Shown here: in pieces, positions 718-43,072 of the stretch
How the letters are laid out: every line of letters begins with the position of its first letter
Position numbering within the stretch: the first letter of the stretch is position 1
Assembly (NCBI GenBank): GCA_040112665.1
Contig: CP157796.1
Span: forward strand, 1,676,813 to 1,740,812
Source: Oceanicaulis sp.
Lineage (GTDB): Bacteria > Pseudomonadota > Alphaproteobacteria > Caulobacterales > Maricaulaceae
Length of the DNA: 64,000 nt
Reading direction: 5' to 3'
Position numbers and translations under genes: made by a program
Notes under the pieces: model-generated
The model's database searches: none
What the model was told of the DNA's origin: nothing
What the model saw: only the letters and a program-made list of their open reading frames with translations

Positions 718-1698
718 GTGGTTAGAACGGCGTTGGCCGCATGTTTTGCGGCGTTGCTTTGCGAGTCGGCTGCATCCGCGCAGATTTTCGGTTTTGGCGG
801 CGAGGCGGGCCAGGTTCAGCCCGACGCGGCGCCGCGTTACGGACAGCATGTTTTCGGGACCGGCGGCGAGCCCGATCCCTATGTCATCGCGATCCGCTCC
901 GGCGGTGATTACGCGGCGCGCCGGTCCGGCTTTCCCGACCGCTGCTACGGCGTCGTCACCGAAGAACCCACCATCGTGCTCGATCATGTGGGCGGTGCGC
1001 CCTCGCTGAGCATCTTCACGGCCGGCCGGGCCGACACGACCCTCGCGATCATCGATCCGTCCGGCGCCTGGCGCTGCGACGACGACGGGGCGGGCCGGGG
1101 CACGAACGCCGCGCTGACCTACCGGTCGCCGCAGCCAGGGCTTTACCGGATCTGGGTCGGCGATTTCAGCGACCGCGAGTCCAATTCGACCCTTGTGATC
1201 TCGGAAAGCTCGCCCTTCGCCCACCCTATCGGCCGGCCGAACGCGCGCGCGCAGACGACCCCGGCTGTAGAGCTGAGCCTCGCGCCAGGGTTCACGCCCG
1301 ATCCGCTCACCATCGACGTACGCACCGGCTACGGCGTCGAGCTCGGTTCGCTCGACGTGTACGGCGAGGAGCAGTGGGGGCGTTGCTCCGGATCGGTGGG
1401 CGAGACGCCCAGCGCGGTGGTGGACTGGGCCGGTGGCGGCACGCTCTCCTTCGTGGCGGACGGCGAGTACGACTACGTCATGGACGTCCGGCCGCCCTCG
1501 GGCGAAGCGATCTGCAATGACGACGTCGGCGAATTCGACGAGCGGGCCGGCCTGACCTTCGAAAACGCGGAAGCCGGCTTCTACAGAATCTATGTCGGGC
1601 TGTTCTTTGGGGGAAACAGCGAGGTGGACGCCACGCTCACGATCTCCAACGGCCCGATCGTGGTCGACGACCGCCCGTTCAACCCCGGTTGGCCGTAG
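718..1698 (+). CDS. Secreted protein with two PPC-like beta domains
   Basis: The predicted product has 326 residues. The GTG at 718 was chosen because a G-rich Shine-Dalgarno-like tract precedes it by about 5 nt and the protein then begins directly with a signal peptide (hydrophobic core at residues 4-15, likely cleavage after Ala-Ser-Ala at 19-21). A longer reading from the GTG at 661 would bury the signal. Two homologous halves follow, at about 50-163 and 195-311. Each has an early Cys (C76, C223), a Cys-Asp/Asn-Asp-Asp motif (C120, C266) and a closing GLYRIWVG / GFYRIYVG strand, which is typical of bacterial pre-peptidase C-terminal (PPC) type beta domains. The paired cysteines suggest a disulfide in each half. 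No catalytic domain is present, so it is probably a binding or structural exoprotein. The next gene starts 11 bp downstream. Confidence 0.7.
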   Translation: MVRTALAACFAALLCESAASAQIFGFGGEAGQVQPDAAPRYGQHVFGTGGEPDPYVIAIRSGGDYAARRSGFPDRCYGVVTEEPTIVLDHVGGAPSLSIFTAGRADTTLAIIDPSGAWRCDDDGAGRGTNAALTYRSPQPGLYRIWVGDFSDRESNSTLVISESSPFAHPIGRPNARAQTTPAVELSLAPGFTPDPLTIDVRTGYGVELGSLDVYGEEQWGRCSGSVGETPSAVVDWAGGGTLSFVADGEYDYVMDVRPPSGEAICNDDVGEFDERAGLTFENAEAGFYRIYVGLFFGGNSEVDATLTISNGPIVVDDRPFNPGWP

Positions 1699-1709
1699 GA
1701 CTGGAGCGC

Positions 1710-2795
1710 ATGATGAAATCGGTTTTCGCACTCGCCGCGCTCCTCGCCGGCCTTTTCTCCGCCGCCGCGTTCGGCCAGCAAGCGCCGTTCTACGGCCAGC
1801 ACCTGTCCGGCGAGTACGGGCTGTACGACCAGTCGGGCGCGCGCGTGTGCACCGTGCGGCTGACCGACCAATTCAACCAGCTTCGCGAGACGTTCCAGAT
1901 GGATGCGCGCGACTGCCCCGAACCGATCGCATCCGCCGCCCGCTGGGAGCTTGAACGCGGGATGGGGACGGGCCGCCATCAGATCGCTTTCTGGTCTGGC
2001 GGTTTCACGCCGGCCTGGCGCGGCGCGGTTCCCAGCCGAGAGGCCGAAGTCTGGGTCGGAGAGGGGTCGGACGGGACTAGCTACCAGTTACGGCCCGAGA
2101 GCGAGAGACCGCGCGCCTGGTTGCGCGGCGAGCCGCAGGCTCAGCGCCGCGCGCTTGAACAGGCGAACCGCTTGCGACCCGGCGATCTTCTGGGCGTATA
2201 CCGGCTGAGCCCGCGCAACGGGTATCCGCGCGAGTGCTATCTGACGCTGTTCAGAGGTCCGAACGGGGGCGGCCGCGTCCGCGTGGAAGGCGAGGGCTGC
2301 GGGCCGTTCGCCAACGCCGACCGGTTCAGATATCAGCAAGGCCGGGTCGTGATTTTTGATCGCCGCAATCAGGGCGTATGGGGCGGCGACGTGCGCCGGC
2401 CCGACGGCGCCATCCGCATCGTCGGCGGCGATCGCCAGATCGGCCAGTGGGAACTCAACCGGCTCGGCGCCGCGCTCCCGCGCACGGCTGAAACCGTAAC
2501 GATGGAGACGCTGGCGGGCCGCTGGACGTTCGAGGAGAACGGCGCGCGCTGCGCAGTGACGCTTCTGGCGGACGGGCGGGTCGACGCGGCGTTCGCCTGC
2601 GAAGACCCCGCGCAATTGTTCGGAAGCTGGCGGCTGGAGGGCGATCTCGTCGTCATCTCCGACAGCTCCGTTTTCAACCCGTCCGACATCTGGCGCGGGC
2701 GCGTGGTCGACATGAACACGATCGAGGGGCGGGGTACGGACGTGATGGTCGGCCTGCCGCCGCGGCGCGTCGGCCGGTCCGCCCTAAGACGCTAG
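1710..2795 (+). CDS. Secreted protein with three AprI/Inh-like (protease inhibitor-type) domains
   Basis: The product has 361 residues and starts at the first of two adjacent ATGs (1710), with TGGAG just upstream. A signal peptide spans residues 1-23. Three similar beta-barrel units follow at about 31-130, 159-252 and 267-345. Each begins G-x-Y/W-x-L/F, has a Cys starting a strand (C47, C176, C281), a second Cys about 16-22 residues later (C69, C197, C297) and a strand resembling W-R-L-E-G-D-x-V-V-I. The third unit best fits the AprI/Inh family of periplasmic metalloprotease inhibitors (also Omp19-like). The assignment rests on motif layout and is moderately secure for unit 3, weaker for units 1-2. 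It is probably co-transcribed with the preceding secreted protein. Its TAG shares a CTAG with the stop of the convergent gene. Confidence 0.65.
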   Translation: MMKSVFALAALLAGLFSAAAFGQQAPFYGQHLSGEYGLYDQSGARVCTVRLTDQFNQLRETFQMDARDCPEPIASAARWELERGMGTGRHQIAFWSGGFTPAWRGAVPSREAEVWVGEGSDGTSYQLRPESERPRAWLRGEPQAQRRALEQANRLRPGDLLGVYRLSPRNGYPRECYLTLFRGPNGGGRVRVEGEGCGPFANADRFRYQQGRVVIFDRRNQGVWGGDVRRPDGAIRIVGGDRQIGQWELNRLGAALPRTAETVTMETLAGRWTFEENGARCAVTLLADGRVDAAFACEDPAQLFGSWRLEGDLVVISDSSVFNPSDIWRGRVVDMNTIEGRGTDVMVGLPPRRVGRSALRR

Positions 2796-3511
2796 AACCC
2801 GCCTTCGTCCAGACGCTCGCCACGCCCGCGCCGCATCAGCAGGCGGCCGGCGATGACCATCCAGGTGATCAGCGTGAAGCCGGCGATGCGCTCGACCGCG
2901 CCGTTATACGCCTCCGGCGTGACGATGAAGGCCGGCCAGGCGATCAGCCAGGCGCCCGCCGCGATGAAGCTGAACCGGTAATACCCGGTGTCGAGCTCGC
3001 CGAGTTCCCTGGCCAGCAGCCCGAGGGCTGCGGCGAACAGCAATCCGATCACCAGGGTGAGCGGCTTGTGGAAGACGAACCCGCCCGGCTCGCCGTCGCC
3101 ATAGGCGTTGTGCCAGGCGAGCAGGACGACGCTGAGCCCGGTGAGCGCCATGACGGCGCAGCCCGCGATGAAGCGCGGATTGCGCCCCAGGCTCCAGTGA
3201 TGAAGTCCGGCCGCGATCGCGACCAGGCCCAGCCCTTCCAGCGTCAGCCCAAGATCGACCCAGATCGAGTGCGGCCCCGCCGCGCCCTGGGAGACGGTGT
3301 TCGCGACGAAGTTCAGCTGATCGTTCAGCCGCACGGTGATGATGTCGCCCGAAAGCCCGGCCACCGCGCCGAGCACGGCGGCGATCCCGCAGGCGAACAG
3401 AACCGGATGCGGCACGGCGGGGCGGTCCGGTCGGAGGGCGTCGATGATGCGCATGGGAGGGAAATGCGGCCGGCTCGCCGATGGTTTCGCGCTGCGGCGC
3501 CTGTCCCACAC
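2792..3511 (-). CDS. DUF998-like integral membrane protein
   Basis: The product has 239 residues. The GTG at 3511 is favoured because AGGGAG lies about 8 nt upstream; an internal ATG (3454) lacks a good ribosome site. Six hydrophobic segments can be seen, at about residues 37-57, 86-103, 116-132, 150-169, 178-198 and 208-226. The pattern of six helices with a conserved H-N between helices 3 and 4 and short charged loops resembles the DUF998 family, whose function is unknown. The C-terminus is basic (Arg-Arg-Gly-Arg-Gly-Glu-Arg). It is transcribed alone, convergent to the inhibitor-like gene with a 4-bp overlap at the stops. Confidence 0.6.
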   Translation of the reverse strand: MWDRRRSAKPSASRPHFPPMRIIDALRPDRPAVPHPVLFACGIAAVLGAVAGLSGDIITVRLNDQLNFVANTVSQGAAGPHSIWVDLGLTLEGLGLVAIAAGLHHWSLGRNPRFIAGCAVMALTGLSVVLLAWHNAYGDGEPGGFVFHKPLTLVIGLLFAAALGLLARELGELDTGYYRFSFIAAGAWLIAWPAFIVTPEAYNGAVERIAGFTLITWMVIAGRLLMRRGRGERLDEGGF

Positions 3512-3581
3512 GGTTTTGCTCCCTGTCCGGACCGAGTCCGGCTAGCGTTCAGGCTCGAACCCTTTAGCGCTCGGGGCCGCC

Positions 3582-4256
3582 ATGAAACGCGACGAGATCG
3601 AACGGCTGAAACACAACGCCCGGCTGGACGTGCGCATGCCCGATCAACTCAAGGACGAGTTCCTCGCCCGCTGCCGGGAAGAGGGCGTGTCCAGCGGCGC
3701 GGTGATCCGGTCGATGGTCGTCGATTATTTGCTGGCCCAACCCCGGCGATGGCCGGACATGACGGTGGGCGTGAAGGAGGCGATCACGAAACGAGCCGAA
3801 TGGTTGCTGGGCGGCTTGGGCGGGGCGGCGACCGCCGGTCTCGCCGCAGCGGGATTGCTGTTCGCGCCGCTGGCGGGCGCGGAAGATTATGTCGTGGACT
3901 TCGACCTCGCCCTTCAGGAGGCGACCGACAACGAGCTTCGGTCCAACCGGATCGAGACCACGGTGCGGCTGACTTCCGGCGAACCGCTCCGCTTCGAGCT
4001 GCCCCATGCGCGCAGCGGATCGGCTGCCGAGTTCGCGATCGAGCTGACCGCGTCCCCGTGCGCGCCCGCGCCCGAGCGGGCGTGTCCGGAGAACGGCGTG
4101 GCGATCGGCATGGTCATCACGCGGCTTTCAGACGACGTGATCCTGTCTTCACCCCGGCTGATCGTCGCGGCCGGACAGCCCGCGCAGATCGAGGTCGGCC
4201 ACCAGCCGGGCGTGCAGATCCTGGTGAACCTGCAGGCCGATACGGTCGCAGAGTAA
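3582..4256 (+). CDS. Ribbon-helix-helix domain fused to a membrane segment and a predicted periplasmic domain
   Basis: The product has 224 residues. Residues 13-52 look like a ribbon-helix-helix DNA-binding unit: a basic strand ARLDVRMP (13-20), helix 21-33 and helix 38-52 ending V-V-D-Y-L-L. After a short linker, residues 74-98 form a Gly/Ala-rich hydrophobic segment ending in A-G-A. The remaining ~125 residues are acidic/polar, beta-rich and contain two cysteines (in SPCAPAPERACP), as expected for an exported domain. The layout suggests a membrane-bound regulator of ToxR-like topology, or an RHH-like cytoplasmic tail used for other interactions. The function is not recognised. It is monocistronic, and a symmetrical terminator follows. 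Confidence 0.6.
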   Translation: MKRDEIERLKHNARLDVRMPDQLKDEFLARCREEGVSSGAVIRSMVVDYLLAQPRRWPDMTVGVKEAITKRAEWLLGGLGGAATAGLAAAGLLFAPLAGAEDYVVDFDLALQEATDNELRSNRIETTVRLTSGEPLRFELPHARSGSAAEFAIELTASPCAPAPERACPENGVAIGMVITRLSDDVILSSPRLIVAAGQPAQIEVGHQPGVQILVNLQADTVAE

Positions 4257-4274
4257 TCCGGCGGCGCGAAGCAA

Positions 4275-4302
4275 AAAGGGCGGCTCGATCGAGCCGCCCT
4301 TT
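4275..4302. terminator. Bidirectional terminator between convergent genes
   Basis: This is a perfect 28-nt palindrome whose halves are AAAGGGCGGCTCGA and its complement. It has A's on the left (4273-4277) and T's on the right, so it can terminate both the + strand regulator gene and the - strand groEL transcript. Confidence 0.85.
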
Positions 4303-4330
4303 CCGTTTCAGCCGTGAGCTGCGGGACTTC

Positions 4331-5977
<1,647 letters not shown>

Positions 5978-28878: not shown

Positions 28879-29619
28879 ATGGCCCTGAAGATCACCGACC
28901 GTCCCTCGCCGAACTTCAACACCCGCAAGGCCGAGGTCTCGCTGCTTGTCCTGCACTATACCGGCATGGAGAGCGCTGAGGCCGCGCTCGAACGGCTGTG
29001 TGATCCCGACGCCCAGGTCAGCGCGCATTATCTCGTCGACGAAGACGGATCCGTGGTCCGCCTGGTCGAGGAAGACGCGCGCGCCTGGCACGCCGGGGCC
29101 GGCGTCTGGGCCGGTCAGACCGACGTGAACTCCGCCTCCATCGGGGTCGAGATCGTCAATGGCGGGCATTGCTACGGCCTGCCTGATTTTCCCCGCCGCC
29201 AGATCGACGCGGTGATCGCGCTGTGCGAAGCGGTCATGGCGCGCTGGGCGATCCCGGCGGCCGGCGTGATCGGTCATTCCGATCTCGCGCCGGAGAGAAA
29301 ACTCGATCCCGGCGAGCGCTTTCCCTGGGCGCGGCTGGCCGATCACGGGATCGGGATCTGGCCCGATCCGGTCGATGTCGATCACGGCCTGGCCTTCGCG
29401 CCGGAGCTCAACGAGGGTCAGGCGCTCGCCGCCGTTCAGTCCCGCCTTGGCGAGATCGGCTATGGCGTCAAGGCCGACGGGGTTTACGGCATGCGCACCC
29501 GCGCCGTGGTCGCCGCCTTCCAGCGCCGCTTCCGGCCCGCCCATGTCGACGGCCTGATCGATCACGAGACCGAAGCGCTGATCGAGGCGGTCGCCGATCT
29601 CGCGCGCCGCCGCGCTTGA
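28879..29619 (+). CDS. N-acetylmuramoyl-L-alanine amidase (AmiD-like) with peptidoglycan-binding domain
   Basis: The product has 246 residues. An Amidase_2 domain (1 to ~160) carries zinc ligands in VLHYTGM and VIGHSDLAPERKLDPG; residues ~175-240 form a PG_binding_1 domain (VQSRLGEIGYGVKADGVYG). It cuts the lactyl-peptide bond of peptidoglycan or recycled muropeptides. No signal peptide is visible, which suggests a cytoplasmic AmpD-like recycling role despite AmiD-like architecture. It is followed by rnpB, whose -35 overlaps the amidase stop. Confidence 0.92.
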   Translation: MALKITDRPSPNFNTRKAEVSLLVLHYTGMESAEAALERLCDPDAQVSAHYLVDEDGSVVRLVEEDARAWHAGAGVWAGQTDVNSASIGVEIVNGGHCYGLPDFPRRQIDAVIALCEAVMARWAIPAAGVIGHSDLAPERKLDPGERFPWARLADHGIGIWPDPVDVDHGLAFAPELNEGQALAAVQSRLGEIGYGVKADGVYGMRTRAVVAAFQRRFRPAHVDGLIDHETEALIEAVADLARRRA

Positions 29620-34189: not shown

Positions 34190-35641
34190 ATGAGCCGCAC
34201 GCTTTCCGAACTTCTGCCCGAAGGCCTGTCCGTCCCCGACGGCGCGGGCGGGCTGACCGTCACGGGCCTGAGCCTGGACAGCCGCACCGTGAAGCCCGGC
34301 GACCTGTTCGCCGCGCTGCCCGGCCTCAGGACCGACGGGCGGAAATTCATACCGATGGCCGAGGAGAAGGGCGCGGTCGCCGTGCTCGCGCCGAAAGGCA
34401 CGAAGGCCGGGGTTCCCGTGATAGAGGCCGACGACCCCGCCGCAGCGCTCGCCATGATCGCGGCCACGTTCCACCCCCGCCAGCCTGAAACCATCGCCGC
34501 GGTCACCGGCACCAACGGCAAGAGCTCGACCGTGGAGTTCCTGCGCCAGATCTGGACCCGCGCCGGGCTGGACGCCGCAGCTCTCGGCACGCTCGGGGTG
34601 ACCCGCGCCACCGGCCGGACCGAGTTCGGCTACACCACCCCGGACGCCATCGCGCTTCACAGATCCATCGACGCCCTGGCCGGTGAAGGGGTCACCCATC
34701 TCGCCATGGAAGCCTCCAGCCACGGGCTGAAGCAGCGGCGCATGGACGCGGTGCGCGTGACGGCGGCCGCCTTCACCAACCTCACCCAGGACCATCTCGA
34801 TTATCACCCTGATTTCGAGGACTATTTCGCCTCCAAGATGCGGCTCTTCCAGGAGCTGGCGATCGAAGGCGCGCCTGCCGTGATCAACATGGACTCAGAC
34901 TGGTCCGACCGGGTGCTTCAGGCCGCCGAGGCGATGGGCATGACGCCGGTCACCATCGGCTGGCGCGGCCGGGACCTCGCGGTGACCGAGATCGTGCCTG
35001 AACTGACGAGCCAGCTCGTCCGCTTCACCTGGAAGGGCGAGGCGCACGAGGTGCACCTGCCGCTGGTGGGCGAGTTCCAGACCGCCAACGCGCTCGGCGC
35101 AGCTGCGCTGGCGCTCGTCACCGGTGTGAGCGAGGCCGACGCCTTCGCCGCCCTGGCGGAGCTCAAGGGCGTGTCGGGCCGGCTGCAGCAGGTGGGTGAG
35201 ACCAAGGCCGGCGCGCCCGTCTTCATCGACTACGCCCACACGCCTGACGGCCTCGACAAGCTGCTGCGCGCGGTGCGTCCGCACACCCAGGGCCGCATCT
35301 TTCTGGTGTTCGGCGCTGGCGGCGACCGCGATCCGACCAAGCGCGAGAAGATGGGCGCGATCGCCGAGAAGCTCGCCGACAAGGTCTATGTCACTGACGA
35401 CAATCCCAGAAGCGAGGACCCGGCGAAGATCCGCAAGGCGGTGCTGAGCGGCTGCCCATCCGCGACCGAGATCGCCGACCGCGCCGAGGCGATCCGCACT
35501 GCGATCGACACGCTGGAAGACGGCGATGTTCTTCTGATCTCCGGCAAGGGCCATGAGACCGGCCAGATCTTCGCCGACCGCACCGTCCCGTTCGACGAGG
35601 TCGAGATCGTGCAGACCCATCTGAGGAAGACCGGCAAATGA
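34190..35641 (+). CDS. murE: UDP-MurNAc-tripeptide ligase MurE (meso-DAP type)
   Basis: The product has 483 residues. The ATP loop is GTNGKSS (107-113, Lys111), and DYAHTPDGLDKLLRA and the amino-acid selector DDNPRSEDP follow. DNPR indicates meso-diaminopimelate as the amino acid added to UDP-MurNAc-L-Ala-D-Glu. The family motif FTNLTQDHLDYH is intact. It is cytoplasmic. Its stop overlaps the murF start (ATGA). Confidence 0.97.
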   Translation: MSRTLSELLPEGLSVPDGAGGLTVTGLSLDSRTVKPGDLFAALPGLRTDGRKFIPMAEEKGAVAVLAPKGTKAGVPVIEADDPAAALAMIAATFHPRQPETIAAVTGTNGKSSTVEFLRQIWTRAGLDAAALGTLGVTRATGRTEFGYTTPDAIALHRSIDALAGEGVTHLAMEASSHGLKQRRMDAVRVTAAAFTNLTQDHLDYHPDFEDYFASKMRLFQELAIEGAPAVINMDSDWSDRVLQAAEAMGMTPVTIGWRGRDLAVTEIVPELTSQLVRFTWKGEAHEVHLPLVGEFQTANALGAAALALVTGVSEADAFAALAELKGVSGRLQQVGETKAGAPVFIDYAHTPDGLDKLLRAVRPHTQGRIFLVFGAGGDRDPTKREKMGAIAEKLADKVYVTDDNPRSEDPAKIRKAVLSGCPSATEIADRAEAIRTAIDTLEDGDVLLISGKGHETGQIFADRTVPFDEVEIVQTHLRKTGK

Positions 35642-37032
35642 CCGCCCCGCTCTGGACCGCGAAAGACGCCGCGACGGCGGTGAACGGACGGCTGACCGAG
35701 GGCGGCTGGAGCGCGAGGGGCGTGTCCATCGACACCCGCACGCTTCAGCCAGGCGATCTTTTCGTCGCCCTGTCGGACAAGCGCGACGGCCATGAGTTCG
35801 CCCAGGCCGCGCTCGACAAGGGCGCCTGCGCGGTGCTCGTCTCCAAATCCGACTGCGCGTCGGGTCCGCGTCTCGTCGTCGACGACGTTCTGAAAGCCCT
35901 GCGCGATCTCGGCGCGGCGGCGCGCACCCGGTCTGACGCCTGGCGGGTCGGGGTGACCGGCTCTGTCGGCAAGACCAGCGTGAAGGAAGCGCTCGCCGCG
36001 GTCTTCCGTGCGGCCGGCAAGGCGCACTGGAGCGAGAAGAGCTACAACAATCACTGGGGCGTGCCGCTGACGCTGTCGCGCATGCCCGCCGAGACCGAGC
36101 GCGCGGTCTTCGAAATGGGCATGAACAACGCCGGAGAGATCCGCGATCTGGTCACCATGACCCGGCCGCACATCGCGATGATCACCAAGATCGCGCCCGC
36201 CCATCTTGAAAACCTCGGCTCGATGGAAGCCATCGCCGACGCCAAGTCGGAAATTTTCGAGGGCCTGGTCGAGGACGGCGTGGCCGTGGTGCCTTCAGAC
36301 GACGAATTCGCCCCGCGCCTGTGCGAAGCCGTGCGCCGGTCCAAGGCCGGCTTTCTTCTCGAATTCGGCCGCTCGGAAGAAGCCGCCGTGCGCGTGCTGA
36401 GCTGGGAGGAGGGGCCTGACGGCGGGTCCGGCGAGATGGCCGTGCTCGGCCGCACCTTCCCCTTCCGCCTCAAGCTCACAGGATCGCACCAGCCGGTGAA
36501 CGCCGCAGGGATCGTCGCCGCAGCGCTGGCCGCCGGCGTCGAGCCCGAGCTCGCGCTGGAGGTGCTCGCGAGCCTCAAACCGGCTGCAGGCCGCGGCGCG
36601 TCGTTCGAGGCCGAGGTCGCCGGCAAGAGGATCTCGGTCATCGACGACAGCTACAACGCCAACCCCGCCTCCATGCGCGCCGCGTTCGGGGCGCTTAAGG
36701 CGCGCGCGCCGAAGAACGGCGGCCGCCGCATCGCGGTGATCGGGGAGATGCTGGAGCTCGGCCCGCGATCGGCCGAGATGCACGCCGATCTCGCCGATCC
36801 GCTGATCGAGGCGGGGGCGGAACTGGTCCTGACCGTCGGCAAGGGCGCAGCGCCGCTGGCCGACGCGCTGGGCGCGCGTGGCGAGGTCTGCGCCGATCCC
36901 GACGCGGCGCTGAAGCTGCTGACCGAGCGGAGCCGCGCGGGCGACGTCGTGTTAATCAAGGGCTCGAACGCCTCGGGCGTTCACAGAATCGCCGCATCCC
37001 TTCTGAACTCTGCGCCCTCGGGGCGAAGCTGA
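35638..37032 (+). CDS. murF: UDP-MurNAc-tripeptide-D-Ala-D-Ala ligase MurF
   Basis: The product has 464 residues. The ATP loop is GSVGKTS (108-114, Lys112). [15 protein letters not shown], the central domain's [10 protein letters not shown] and the C-terminal [14 protein letters not shown] with EMLELG are as in active MurF. It adds D-Ala-D-Ala to the UDP-MurNAc-tripeptide. Its intact motifs contrast with the altered murD-like gene two positions downstream. Confidence 0.97.
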
Positions 37033-37045
37033 GCGTACATATTCA

Positions 37046-38146
37046 ATGCTTTATCTCCTGCTTTCCCCCTTCGCTGACCAGTTCCAGCTGTTCAACGTTC
37101 TGAATTACCTGACCTTCAGGACCGGCGCGTCGCTCATGACCGCCTTCGTGATCGCGCTGATCATCGGCAAACCCTTCATCGACTGGCTGAGAAAGCAGGG
37201 CTCCCAGCCCATCCGCGACGACGGTCCTGAAGGCCATGTGCTGACCAAGGCCGGCACCCCGACCATGGGCGGGTTCATCATCCTTCTGTCGATCCTGGCG
37301 GGCACCCTGATCTGGGGCGACCTGTCCAACCCCTATCTCTGGGTCGTCCTGTTCGTGACCGCGGGCTTCGGCGGCATCGGGTTCATCGACGACTGGCGCA
37401 AGGTCACCGAGAAGTCCCACAAGGGCCTGTCGGGCAAGGGAAAGCTGATCCTTCAGTTTTCGCTGGCCTTCATCGCGGTGCTCTGGATGGTCCAGCTTCT
37501 GGACGGCGCGCCGGGCACGCCGGACAATTTCTCCACCTCGGTGGCGGTCCCCTTCTTCAAGGATCTGCTGATCCCGCTGAGCTTCGCCTTTTATCTGTTC
37601 GGCATGTGCGTGATCGTCGGCGCGTCGAACGCGGTGAACCTCACCGACGGTCTCGATGGCCTGGCCATCGTGCCGGTGATGATCGCAGCGGGCAGCTTCG
37701 GCTTCATCGCCTATTTCGTCGGCTCGGCGGTCTACGCCGATTACCTGTTCCTGAACTTCACCCCCGGCACGGGCGAACTCGCCGTGATCTGCGGGGCGAT
37801 GATCGGGGCGGGGCTCGGCTTTCTGTGGTTCAACGCGCCGCCGGCCATGGTCTTCATGGGCGACACCGGCTCGCTGTCTCTGGGCGGGGCGATCGGGGCG
37901 ATCGCGGTGGCGGTCAAGCACGAGATCGTGCTGGTCATCATCGGCGGCCTGTTCGTGCTCGAGGCCGTCTCGGTCTTCGTGCAGGTGTTCAGCTACAAGG
38001 TCTTCGGCAAGCGCGTCTTCAAGATGGCGCCGATCCACCACCATTTCGAAAAGCAGGGCTGGGCCGAACCCACCATCGTGATCCGCTTCTGGATCATCGC
38101 CTTCGTGCTCGCCCTCATCGGACTGTCGACCCTGAAACTGCGCTAG
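37046..38146 (+). CDS. mraY: Phospho-MurNAc-pentapeptide transferase MraY
   Basis: The product has 366 residues with about ten membrane helices. Signatures: [28 protein letters not shown] with the catalytic Asp pair, [26 protein letters not shown] and the [13 protein letters not shown] His motif. It makes lipid I from UDP-MurNAc-pentapeptide and undecaprenyl phosphate. The ribosome site is weak, but the N-terminus [11 protein letters not shown] is standard. Confidence 0.98.
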
Positions 38147-38159
38147 GAGGTGCCCCGCC

Positions 38160-39437
38160 ATGGTTCCGGTCCGATCGCTCGCGGGCCGACGCGTCGCGAT
38201 CCTCGGCCTGACCGGACCCGGTCTCGCCGCGGCGCGCGCGCTGCGGGCGGGCGGGGCGGAGCTGATCTGCTGGGACGATGACGAGACCCGCCGCGCCGCC
38301 GCCGTGCGCGCGGGCTACCGGGTCGAGGACCTGACCACGCGCGACTGGAGCGGGCTGGCCCGGCTGGTGATCGACGACGCCGGCCTTCTCGACGCCGACC
38401 CCCGACCCCGCCTGCTCGATCTGGCCGAGGCGGTCGGCGCCGAGATCACCCCCGCCCTGACCCTGCTCGCTGAAGCGGCGACCGCCCCGCACGAGGCGGG
38501 CCTCGCCGTCGTCACGGGGCGCAACGCCGAGGCCGCCGCCGCGCTCGCCGCGCATCTTCTGGCCAATGCGGCCACGCCTGCACGAAGCCTTTGCGATCCG
38601 CGTCCCGGCCGGGCGATCCGGATCGCAGCGCTCGCCTCCGGCGAAGCCGCGCGCCTGCCCGAGAGCGTCACGCCCGAGGCCGTCGTGCTCCTCAGCCAAG
38701 CCGACACGCGGTCCGAACTGCTCGATCTCGCGGCGCGAAGCGGCGTGCTGATTTCCGCCGCCGATCTCAGGAAAGGCGCGCGGCTGGCAGCGGGGCGTCT
38801 GCGGGGGACAGCTGCGCTGATCTCCGGCCGCATGGTGGTGGGCGGCGGCGTTCATGCGGTCTCAGGCCGTCTGATCGACGCGCTCGACGGCGTCGCGCGG
38901 CCCGCCGGGGCGCTTCCCGCCTGGGCGCCGTTCGAAGCCGTCGCCGCCGGCTGGGCGCTCGCCCGGCGTCTGGGCGCGAGTTTCGCGGATTGCCGCACGG
39001 CGCTGAACGACTGGACCGGCGCGCCGGGCCATGGCTGCGAGATCGCCAGGCTCGGCCGTTCGCCCATCGTGGACTGGAGTGCGGCTGTGAGCCCAGCGCT
39101 CGCCGTCGACGCGGTCACCGAAGCGCCCTGCGTCTGGATTGCCGGCCCGGCCCTCGACAAAAGCGCGGCGGATCTCCTGGACGCGGCGCGCACGCCGCCG
39201 CGCGCCATCGTGCTGATCGGCGACAAGGGCCGGGCCGAAGCGCGTCTGCAGGCCTACGCCCCCGTCACGATCGCCCGCACGCTGGACGAGGCGCTGGGCC
39301 GGGCGCTGCACGCGGCGGCGCGGCATGGTTCACCGGTCGTTTACGCTCCGGGAAGTGTTTCCGGGCAAACAGGAAGTGCGCTGCCCGACGCGCTCGGACG
39401 TCTGACGGCGCGCGCGCTTTCTGGAGACGCCGCATGA
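38160..39437 (+). CDS. murD: MurD-like protein at the murD locus, catalytic motifs lost
   Basis: The product has 425 residues and AGGAGG precedes its ATG. Length, position between mraY and ftsW, and an N-terminal Rossmann-like start (VAILGLTGPGLAAARAL, 12-28) match MurD (UDP-MurNAc-L-Ala:D-Glu ligase). The motifs needed for catalysis do not. The P-loop GTNGKST reads GRNAEAA at 120-126, with Glu124 at the Lys position. The usual EDHLDRH segment is not found. The NDSKATN loop reads VDWSAAV (304-310). The final SPACASFDQ region reads APGSVSGQT. The frame is fully open with normal high third-position GC, so it looks maintained rather than a fresh pseudogene. It may be a non-catalytic Mur-ligase relative; a functional MurD would then have to be elsewhere. 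The symbol marks the locus only. Confidence 0.75.
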   Translation: MVPVRSLAGRRVAILGLTGPGLAAARALRAGGAELICWDDDETRRAAAVRAGYRVEDLTTRDWSGLARLVIDDAGLLDADPRPRLLDLAEAVGAEITPALTLLAEAATAPHEAGLAVVTGRNAEAAAALAAHLLANAATPARSLCDPRPGRAIRIAALASGEAARLPESVTPEAVVLLSQADTRSELLDLAARSGVLISAADLRKGARLAAGRLRGTAALISGRMVVGGGVHAVSGRLIDALDGVARPAGALPAWAPFEAVAAGWALARRLGASFADCRTALNDWTGAPGHGCEIARLGRSPIVDWSAAVSPALAVDAVTEAPCVWIAGPALDKSAADLLDAARTPPRAIVLIGDKGRAEARLQAYAPVTIARTLDEALGRALHAAARHGSPVVYAPGSVSGQTGSALPDALGRLTARALSGDAA

Positions 39438-40558
39438 GCGTGAAGCACCGCCGCACCGGCCTGTGGAGCGGGCTGGACCAGCCGATCCTGACCATCGTCA
39501 TCCTGCTGATGGCGGTCGGCGTGGTGATGTCGTTCGCCACCAGCCCGGCGGTCAGCAGCGGCGAGGACCCCTGGTACTATCTCAAGCGCCAGACCGGCTT
39601 CACCATCGTCTCGCTCGGCGTGGTGATGGTCACCGCGGCGCTGTCGAGCACCGGGATCAGGCGCATGTCCGGTCTCGCCTTGCTCACCGCCTTCGCCATG
39701 CTGATCACGGTGGCGATCATCGGCCATGACGTGAACGGCGCGACCCGCTGGATCCGCTTCGCGGGCATGTCCTTCCAGCCCAGCGAGCTGTTCAAGCCCG
39801 CCTTCGTGGTCGTCGCCGCCTGGCTCTTCGCCGAGGAGGACCGGGGCGCGCCGCTGCCCGGCCGCGCCGTCGCCACCGGGCTCTATCTCGCCGGCGCGGC
39901 GCTTTTGATGATGCAGCCCGATTTCGGCCAGACGGTGCTGATCTCGCTGGTGTTCGGCGCGATGCTCTGGGCGGGCGGGCTCAGCTGGACGCACAGCGCG
40001 GGGCTGGGCGGTCTCGCCTGCGCCGGCGCGGCGGGCGCCTACGCCGCCCTGCCGCACGTGCGCGACAGGATCGCGGATTTCCTCACGCCGTCGAACCCGC
40101 TGGCGCGCAGCCAGACAGACATCGCCATGGACGCCATCTCGCGCGGCGGGCTGTGGGGCGCGGGGCCGGGGCAGGGCGAGGTCAAGCACGTGCTGCCCGA
40201 AGCGCATAACGATTTTGTGTTCTCCGTCGCCGCCGAGGAATTCGGCCTCGTCGCCTCGCTCGCCATCATCGGGCTCTATGCGCTGCTGTTCGCGCGCGCC
40301 TGGATGCTGGCCATGCGCCTGTCAGACCCGTTCCACCAGCTCGCAACGGCGGGGCTGGCGCTGCTGTTCGGGCTGCAGGCGCTGGTCAATATCGCGGTCA
40401 ATCTCGACATCGCGCCACCGACGGGCATGACGCTGCCCTTCATCTCTGCGGGCGGATCGTCCATGGTCGCGCTCGCGTTTTCGGCCGGACTGCTGCTCGC
40501 CCTGACCCGCAGACGGCCCGGCGCCTATATGCCCAAGGCCCGCCCTGCAGCCGCCTGA
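39434..40558 (+). CDS. ftsW: Septal peptidoglycan polymerase FtsW
   Basis: The product has 374 residues with ten predicted membrane helices. SEDS-family marks: GATRWIRFAGMSFQPSELFK, DFGQTVLI, the long loop with PSNPLARSQTD, GGLWGAGPGQGEVKHVLPEAHNDFVF and LPFISAGGSSMVA. It polymerises lipid II at the septum with FtsI. The ATG overlaps the stop of the murD-like gene (ATGA), so translation of ftsW may depend on that gene being read. Confidence 0.97.
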   Translation: MSVKHRRTGLWSGLDQPILTIVILLMAVGVVMSFATSPAVSSGEDPWYYLKRQTGFTIVSLGVVMVTAALSSTGIRRMSGLALLTAFAMLITVAIIGHDVNGATRWIRFAGMSFQPSELFKPAFVVVAAWLFAEEDRGAPLPGRAVATGLYLAGAALLMMQPDFGQTVLISLVFGAMLWAGGLSWTHSAGLGGLACAGAAGAYAALPHVRDRIADFLTPSNPLARSQTDIAMDAISRGGLWGAGPGQGEVKHVLPEAHNDFVFSVAAEEFGLVASLAIIGLYALLFARAWMLAMRLSDPFHQLATAGLALLFGLQALVNIAVNLDIAPPTGMTLPFISAGGSSMVALAFSAGLLLALTRRRPGAYMPKARPAAA

Positions 40559-40568
40559 GAGAGTTTTC

Positions 40569-41657
40569 ATGACCGGACGCTGCCTGATCGCCGCCGGCGG
40601 GACCGGCGGGCACATGTTCCCCGCGCGCGCCGCCGCCGACGCCCTCATCGCCCGGGGCTGGGCGGTCCAGCTCGTCACGGACGCGCGCGGCGCGAAGCAC
40701 GCCGAGGGCTTTCCCGGCGAACCGGTGAAGACCATCGAGGCGGGCAGCCCGTTCGCGAAGAACCCGATCAAGATGGCCGGCGCGCTGTCCAAGCTCGCTC
40801 GCGGCTACGGCCAGGCGCGCGCGATCTTTTCCGAATTCAAGCCCGACGTCGTCGCCGGTTTCGGCGGCTACCCGGCCTTTCCTGCGCTCGCCGCGGCGCG
40901 GTTTTCCGGCACGCCCTTCGTCATCCATGAGCAGAACGCGGTGCTGGGCCGGGTGAACAGGCTGTTCTGCCGGGGCGCGGAAGCGGTCGCCTCGGGTTTT
41001 GACCGCCTCGACAGGGCGAGCTCGAAAGCGCTGCATGTCGTCACCGGCAATCCGGTCCGCGCCGCGATCCTCGAAGCGACGGAAAAAGAATACCGCGCGC
41101 CGCGGCCCGGAGAGCCGATCCGGATCCTCATCCTCGGCGGCAGCCTGGGCGCGCGCATCCTGTCGGACGTCGTGCCCCGGGCGCTCGCCGCCATGCCCGA
41201 GGAGCTCCGCAAGCGGCTGAAAGTCACCCACCAGGTCCGCGAAGAACAGCTCGACGAAGCGCGCAAGACCTATGACCGCGCGGGCATCGAGGCCGAGCTG
41301 TCGAGCTTCTTCACCGACATGGGCGGGCTTTACGCCGACGCGCATCTGATCATCAGCCGGGCCGGCGCGAGCTCGGTCAGCGAGATCGCTGCGGCGGGCC
41401 GGCCGGCCATCTTCGTGCCGCTCGCCATCGCCATGGACGACCACCAGACCGCCAACGCTCATTCGCTGGTCCGGGAGGGCGCGGCTGAAAGCGTTCCGGA
41501 ACGCGAACTCACTCCCGGGCGTCTGTGTGAGCATCTTGCAAGGCTTCTCGCCGACGGCGAAGCTTTGTCCAAGCGCGCCGAAGCGGCGCGCAAGCTCGGC
41601 CGCCGCAACGCCGCCGAGCGTCTCGCCGATCTGATCGCCACCGCAGCGGAGACCTGA
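40569..41657 (+). CDS. murG: UDP-GlcNAc transferase MurG
   Basis: The product has 362 residues. Signatures: [57 protein letters not shown] and the donor-binding [23 protein letters not shown]. It adds GlcNAc to lipid I on the inner face of the cytoplasmic membrane to give lipid II. The start is 10 bp after ftsW. Confidence 0.98.
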
Positions 41658-41662
41658 CCTAC

Positions 41663-43072
41663 ATGCCGCCCATCGACCTCGCCGCCTCTGTCGCTCCTGT
41701 TCACTTCGTCGGCATTGGCGGCATCGGGATGAGCGGCATCGCCGAAGTCATGCTCAATCTCGGCTATGCGGTCACGGGTTCGGACATCAAGGACAGCCCC
41801 AACGTCCAGCGCCTGCGCGACAAGGGCGCGACCATCCATATCGGCCACAGGCCGGAGAACGTGCACGGGGTCGGGGCGCTCGTGGTCTCGAGCGCGGTCA
41901 AGCGCGACAATCCCGAACTCGCCGAAGCCAGAAAGCAGCGTACGCCCGTGGTGCGCCGCGCCGAGATGCTCGCCGAGCTGATGCGGCTGAAGCATGCGGT
42001 CGCCGTCGCCGGAACGCACGGAAAGACCACCACGACCAGCCTCGTCGCCGCGCTGATGGACGCGGCCGGTTTCGACCCCACCGTGATCAACGGCGGGATC
42101 ATCTCCGCCTACGGCTCGAACGCGAAAATGGGCGAGGGCGACTGGATGGTCGTCGAGGCCGACGAGAGCGACGGCAGCTTTCTGAAGCTGCGCGGCTCGG
42201 TCGGCATCGTCACCAACATCGACCCCGAGCACATGGAGCATTACGGCAGCTTCGACGCTCTGAAGGACGCCTTCGACCAGTTCGTCCACAATCTGCCCTT
42301 CTACGGCTTCGCGGTGCTGTGCATCGACCATCCTGAAGTGCAGGCGCTCGCCGCTCGGATCGAGGACCGGCGGATCATCACCTACGGGGTGAGCCCGCAG
42401 GCCGACGTGCGCATCGCGCGGCTGACCATGGACCCGGCCGGGGCGGGCTTTGATCTGATGTTCCAGAACCGCGGCCGCGAGCCGGAGGTCTGGACCGCGC
42501 TGGGCCTGCCGATGATGGGCGAGCACAACGTGCTGAACGCCGCGGGCGCCATCGCCGTTGTCGAGGCGCTGGGCGGCCGTGAGGACGAGATCCGGAAGGG
42601 CCTCGCCGGCTTCTCAGGCGTCAAGCGCCGCTTCACGGTCACCGGCGTGGCGAACGGGGTCACGGTCGTCGACGATTACGGCCACCACCCGGTGGAGATC
42701 GCCGCGGTGTTGAAAGCCGCCCGCCAGCGCGCCGGGAACGGCCGCGTGGTCGCGGTCATGCAGCCCCACCGTTTCTCGCGGCTCAACGCCCTGTTTGAAG
42801 ACTTCTGCACCTGCTTCAACGACGCCGACAGCGTGCTGGTCACGCCCGTCTACTCCGCTGGCGAAGATCCGATCGAAGGCGCGGACCGGCAGGGCCTGGT
42901 GGACGGGCTCTCCCGCCACGGCCACCGCGACGCCGCGCCCACCGATCGCGACAGCCTGACCGAGGACATCGCCCCGCGCGTGAAACCCGGCGACCTCGTG
43001 GTGTGCCTGGGCGCAGGCGACATCACCGCCTGGGCCGCCGAACTGCCCGAGCGGCTGGAGGAAAAGATTTGA
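41663..43072 (+). CDS. murC: UDP-MurNAc:L-alanine ligase MurC
   Basis: The product has 469 residues. It has [18 protein letters not shown] at the N-terminus, the ATP loop [41 protein letters not shown] and [10 protein letters not shown]. All are typical of active MurC, which adds L-Ala to UDP-MurNAc. It starts 5 bp after murG and is followed by a repeat element that separates it from murB. Confidence 0.98.

Follow-up and report, generated by a model that had tools for sequence, protein, structure and literature searches.

Which gene provides the MurD activity of Oceanicaulis sp., and why does the murD position of its dcw cluster still hold an open gene whose product lacks the catalytic motifs of that enzyme? 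Within the window, that is, the whole stretch of 64,000 nucleotides analysed here, the gene in this slot (38160–39437, forward strand) starts with an ATG located 13 nt past the mraY stop codon and encodes a protein of 425 amino acids, a catalytically dead MurD orthologue (pseudoenzyme) as judged from its translation, profile scores and HHalign comparisons. It is flanked by mraY upstream (37046–38146) and ftsW downstream (39434–40558), and the same strand carries murE and murF (34190–37032), which keep their motifs and served as controls, as well as murG and murC (40569–43072), used as controls for dN/dS.

Descent of the slot gene and loss of its catalytic motifs

The slot protein scored 32 bits against the murD profile TIGR01087, compared with a curated membership cut-off of 212, and no Pfam Mur ligase domain was detected in it. 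As a single query against the genome contigs it matched Paracoccaceae MurDs only, and a single-sequence search of solved structures returned no MurD, which the slot-family profile did match weakly (3lk7, E 4.6e-5). In a profile–profile comparison, HHalign aligned the 11-member slot family of the genus with canonical dcw MurDs over 437 columns (probability 100%, E 1.6e-52), the corresponding E values being 9.7e-5 for MurD2 and 0.33 for MurG. In the tree, canonical dcw MurDs and the slot proteins fell together (100%), apart from a clade of the MurD2s (100%). This end-to-end match and the branching with intact dcw MurDs indicate that the slot protein is an orthologue and no replacement; homology and the position between mraY and ftsW, taken together, show the slot gene to be a direct descendant of the dcw murD.

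The initial annotation had attributed to this protein the length and the N-terminal fold outline of MurD. The homology was borne out, but the protein is 20–50 amino acids shorter than the intact MurDs of relatives, because its central domain has deletions. Structure prediction for the slot protein, aligned with three distant MurDs, yielded a mean pLDDT of 46, with the N-terminal domain alone moderately confident. With canonical MurD (UDP-N-acetylmuramoyl-L-alanine--D-glutamate ligase, TIGR01087; E. coli 1uag, 2uag, 4uag) the slot protein has in common the operon position, the ATGA junction with ftsW and the full-length profile–profile match, whereas it is devoid of any catalytic motif and lies far under the family cut-off.

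The translation contains GRNAEAA at residues 120–126 (38517–38537, forward strand) instead of the P-loop GTNGKST, VDWSAAV at the position of NDSKATN and APGSVSGQT at that of SPACASFDQ, just as initially described, and MurE, MurF and MurC of the same cluster retain intact motifs within the window. The losses extend beyond these sites, since the NxTPDHxDRHG loop with His183 and the helix of the carbamylated Lys198 are deleted or replaced (approximate deletion site 38691–38724, forward strand) and the residues at the SPG and K348 positions differ. Walker A GTNGKST, His183, Lys198, NDSKATN and SPACASFDQ are missing from all 11 slot-bearing members of the genus, among which the P-loop residues differ between species (GR-NAEA, GGDDAGA, GT-QADA, etc.). 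Preservation is best in the N-terminal Rossmann-like domain (WDxDE, TTRDWxDL), in scattered glycines, and in the SGR (SGRxxLxxGV) and WIAG segments. Motifs shifted by sequencing errors, a possibility raised at the outset as a refutation, could be ruled out, as could a frameshift: no frame on either strand of the region contains the missing motifs, the same frame is open and equally motif-less in 11 of the 15 genus members, and the gene is cleanly deleted from the other four.

Displacement of MurD by MurD2 and MurL

That the MurD activity had moved to another gene was originally no more than a conjecture. The search of the rest of the genome located an intact MurD2 (G000:C1:38126-39487, outside the window), the sole protein of this genome above the MurD cut-off, with its hit at G000:C1:38198-39478, and adjoining it a MurL homologue (G000:C1:39484-40818, likewise outside), the two genes overlapping convergently. 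MurD2 scored 293 bits to TIGR01087 and has intact catalytic motifs, with the P-loop GTKGKST and the substitutions K348R and A414P. The MurL homologue matched NF041275 with 277 bits over 433 of 447 positions, the cut-off of 700 for this profile being Xanthomonadales-specific; other alphaproteobacterial MurL homologues also lie under it. All 15 genus genomes contain MurL and 14 contain an intact MurD2, the exception being a fragmented assembly (G004). As a matter of gene order, murD2 and murL lie at distant chromosomal sites or on different contigs in one clade (G001, G006, G009, G011, G012, G013), and are convergent neighbours in the remaining genus members with a located murD2.

The genes for making D-Glu point in the same direction. 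MurI, the glutamate racemase, was found in none of the 15 genus genomes and in none of the 30 MurL genomes tested for it, and no Dat-like aminotransferase of at least 190 bits appeared in the 15 genus genomes or in the 19 MurL genomes tested, the best match reaching 154 bits. A genome with a partial MurL match (103 bits) and an intact dcw-type MurD, G130, was left out of the MurL set. Relatives with neither MurI nor MurL have a Dat-like aminotransferase of at least 237 bits, except for two incomplete genomes, G016 and G029; these assemblies are about 90% complete, and their lack of MurI, MurL and a clear Dat-like gene is possibly a gap.

In Xanthomonas, MurD2 adds L-Glu and MurL then inverts the residue with ATP, no D-Glu-forming enzyme being present, and Parvularcula, Devosia and Pelagibacterium are already on record as alphaproteobacterial MurL carriers (PMC8788868, PMC5808125). 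The genome studied here resembles that of Xanthomonas oryzae (XOO_1320/XOO_1319) in its adjacent MurD2 and MurL and its lack of MurI (PMC8788868, PMC5808125). At the positions of E. coli D182, K348, A414 and L416, where the X. oryzae MurD2 is reported to carry E, R, P and F (PMC8788868), the genus MurD2s have Glu in 6 of 14 (Asp in the other 8), Arg in 14 of 14, Pro in 14 of 14 and Phe in none (Gly, Ser, Cys or Ala at 416); K348R and A414P thus match, whereas the counterparts of X. oryzae Glu197 and Phe435 are not both present. We infer the activities of both enzymes in the genus, including a predicted use of L-Glu by MurD2; that of MurL would follow from homology and genomic context, because its score falls under the Xanthomonadales-specific cut-off. 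Taken together, the intact MurD2, the MurL homologue, the absence of MurI and of a clear Dat-like gene support the proposed transfer, and at the level of gene content they show the displacement of MurD by MurD2–MurL. Slightly upstream of the dcw cluster (28879–29619 of the window) there is also an N-acetylmuramoyl-L-alanine amidase-like gene, of the AmpD type by inspection, which may be connected with the recycling of peptides that contain D-Glu.

Fate of the slot gene and selection on its remnant

Eleven of the 15 genus genomes keep the dead MurD as an open gene, and four have deleted it (G004, G007, G008, G014), their ATG-initiated ftsW lying 9–53 nt after mraY. Since these four constitute one clade (support 100/99), a single deletion event suffices. 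Elsewhere, other states of the slot are found. A member of the same family, G023, combines MurD2–MurL with a fully intact dcw MurD (336 bits), which is the state expected before slot decay. In g27 (G048, G056, G060), a genus belonging to another family, MurD2 falls on a different branch, together with that of G023 (100%), and the dcw slot has degenerated differently, with the P-loop GK[ST] kept, His183, NDSKATN and SPACASFDQ lost or altered, and Lys198 likewise lost or altered in two of three. The slot proteins of the two genera grouped in the tree (84), but this grouping is distrusted on account of long branches. Nine MurL genomes of five more families (G090, G100, G118, G134, G217, G227, G363, G381, G430) have ftsW directly behind mraY.

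Several further arrangements were observed among these relatives. In G023, MurL, MurD2 and a third, MurC-like Mur ligase with the P-loop GSSGKS stand in a row (L168, G023:C3:1-8000, approximately 1678–5853), in a genome whose dcw cluster still holds a MurC and the intact MurD. A relative of the same family that has MurI carries its dcw MurD in two ORFs with an in-frame TAA (G024:C78:16792-17870), either an assembly error or a second decaying MurD. MurE and MurF are apparently fused into an ORF of about 800–950 amino acids in MurL genomes of families f45, f63 and f79 (L160–L162, L164–L167).

Alignment of the orthologues revealed slot dN/dS values of 0.23–0.28 in four close pairs (G011/G012, G012/G013, G011/G013 and G001/G012; dS 0.39–0.64) and of 0.45 in a fifth, G006/G009, well below neutral, and in the closest pairs all 449 slot codons aligned free of gaps. 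The same pairs gave 0.04–0.11 for MraY, 0.07–0.19 for MurC, 0.15–0.20 for MurF, 0.09–0.23 for MurG and 0.14–0.21 for MurD2. In simulations that used the base composition and the transition bias of fourfold sites, run once with stop codons rejected and once with them allowed (100 per pair and mode), mean pN/pS was 1.06–1.19 under neutral or frame-only evolution, and the observed values of 0.28–0.76 were reached in 0 of 100 for every pair and mode. Constraint was weakest in the nearest pair of the window species (G000–G010, dS near 1), with a pN/pS of 0.76 against a neutral 1.13, so that the slot of this species may be drifting towards loss; branch lengths gave no sign of its being more relaxed than that of its neighbour. 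In g27, pN/pS was 0.49 for the slots of G056/G060, similar to MurG and MurF, with synonymous sites near saturation.

Because the motif loss is common to all slot-bearing genus members, comparisons between these genomes measure constraint on the protein in its dead state. The codon comparisons show that the slot gene is under relaxed but clear purifying selection, and there is good support for a non-catalytic remnant having been retained under selection. The earlier view that the gene persists as a non-catalytic protein is thus sustained by the genus-wide motif loss and the low dN/dS; in close relatives, where relaxed selection with frameshifts would have spoken against it, selection is relaxed and one clade of four has lost the gene, and the 11 retained genes are open.

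Possible roles of the retained protein

We consider it likely, as a whole, that a displaced dcw murD whose catalytic sites decayed has been kept as a selected non-catalytic remnant, with docking as its favoured job. The different two-enzyme route MurD2–MurL would have taken over the job of MurD; once D-Glu was no longer produced, the dcw MurD would have been left idle, and the sites for ATP, Mg and the Lys carbamate presumably decayed for want of a substrate. The protein may have kept a second, non-catalytic property, by which the remnant would continue to fill the MurD position, as a subunit for docking or assembly, in a cytoplasmic complex of Mur ligases, MurG and MraY/FtsW, and translational coupling to ftsW could have slowed its loss. 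Full-length, open slots under purifying selection in 11 of 15 species suggest that the remnant works without catalysis; the loss in one clade of four species indicates that any such role is dispensable or replaceable.

A scaffold or regulator role, as suggested in the initial annotation, is plausible. Docking within a MurG/MraY/FtsW/Mur ligase assembly is the most economical candidate, because the MurD of Thermotoga maritima is reported to bind MurG and MreB (PMC6420597, PMC4929429). In the Mur ligase assemblies described for Bordetella (MurE–MurF with MurG, PMC6420597) and T. maritima (MurD–MurG–MreB, PMC4929429), binding to MurG or MreB is a non-catalytic property that a dead MurD could keep; the ligases are active there, however, and no dead member was found in the available portions of these accounts. 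The presence of MreB as a correlate of slot retention gave no signal, since all 15 genus genomes have MreB, keepers and losers alike. This lack of separation, together with the low-confidence structure prediction, leaves docking a tentative assignment, somewhat doubtful in itself.

The junction with ftsW bears on a different and rather unlikely explanation, in which the gene is a slowly decaying relic that stays open only through translational coupling, its amino-acid sequence being without any role. The last slot codons contain a Shine–Dalgarno-like GGAGA followed by the ATGA stop/start overlap with ftsW (39423–39437, forward strand; ATGA at 39434–39437, the ftsW ATG at 39434), and this overlap is present in 11 of 11 slot-bearing genus genomes; moreover, slot constraint is 2–4 times weaker than that of most neighbours, and the slot was lost once, in the clade of four. 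However, relatives with an intact murD share this ATGA and have an almost identical GGAGACGCCGC stretch, which makes the coupling ancestral, and the deletion genomes show that ftsW, with its own ATG, can be placed directly behind mraY. The stop-rejecting simulations represent precisely a gene kept open for ftsW, and they never attained the observed ratio, so coupling alone fails; the gap-free alignment of the closest pairs also speaks against a relic. Plain pseudogene or frame-only retention is ruled out for the close pairs, and the relic explanation is already largely refuted for the clade of G001, G011, G012 and G013. The suggestion that the gene was retained through ftsW is at most a partial answer: coupling may delay slot loss, but it is an old feature and does not suffice as an explanation.

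Less probable still is the gain of a new catalytic or ligand-binding function, e.g. nucleotide or UDP-sugar sensing, by which the slot protein would regulate the pathway. Its best-conserved portion is indeed the N-terminal Rossmann-like domain, with WDxDE, TTRDWxDL and SGRxxLxxGV, and dinucleotide-binding domains are weakly similar to it, but neither the glycine pattern of a dinucleotide site nor the SPG loop of the UDP site is conserved among slot proteins, and the conserved segments are equally those of intact MurD, and so may merely hold the fold. It is very improbable that the slot protein still acts as a MurD by means of an atypical active site, the other MurD being an accessory. Standard operon position and full-length homology would fit such an enzyme; against it, the P-loop, His183, Lys198, the Asn and Lys of NDSKATN and SPACASFDQ are gone with no common P-loop replacement across 11 species, there are species without the slot gene, and a complete MurD2 occurs in 14 of 15 genomes that lack MurI.

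The selected, non-catalytic remnant of a displaced MurD remains the preferred reading. The MurD2–MurL pathway and its alphaproteobacterial presence were already known; the accounts of the X. oryzae system, in the portions available, contain no mention of the fate of the dcw murD (PMC8788868, PMC5808125), and a limited literature search, which is no proof of absence, found no retained, selected, catalytically dead MurD in a dcw cluster. Dead slots in two genera with different MurD2 sources suggest more than a single accident. With considerable reserve, we propose that a MurD displaced by MurD2–MurL may have become, independently in two alphaproteobacterial genera, a selected pseudoenzyme and structural subunit of the peptidoglycan precursor machinery. 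If this is true, a function of MurD other than catalysis can be separated from ligation. These genomes offer a natural test of the old question of whether the part played by Mur ligases is architectural as well as catalytic, since catalysis has moved elsewhere, the dead MurD is still selected in the dcw operon and species with a natural deletion allow comparison. The presumed steps of the enzyme replacement accompany MurD2–MurL as an intact MurD (G023), a dead MurD (this genus and g27) and no slot (the deletion clade and several families). These genomes also show that the occupant of the murD locus is not necessarily the enzyme that serves the cell as MurD, a point that bears on essential-gene calls and on work with MurD and MurD2 inhibitors.
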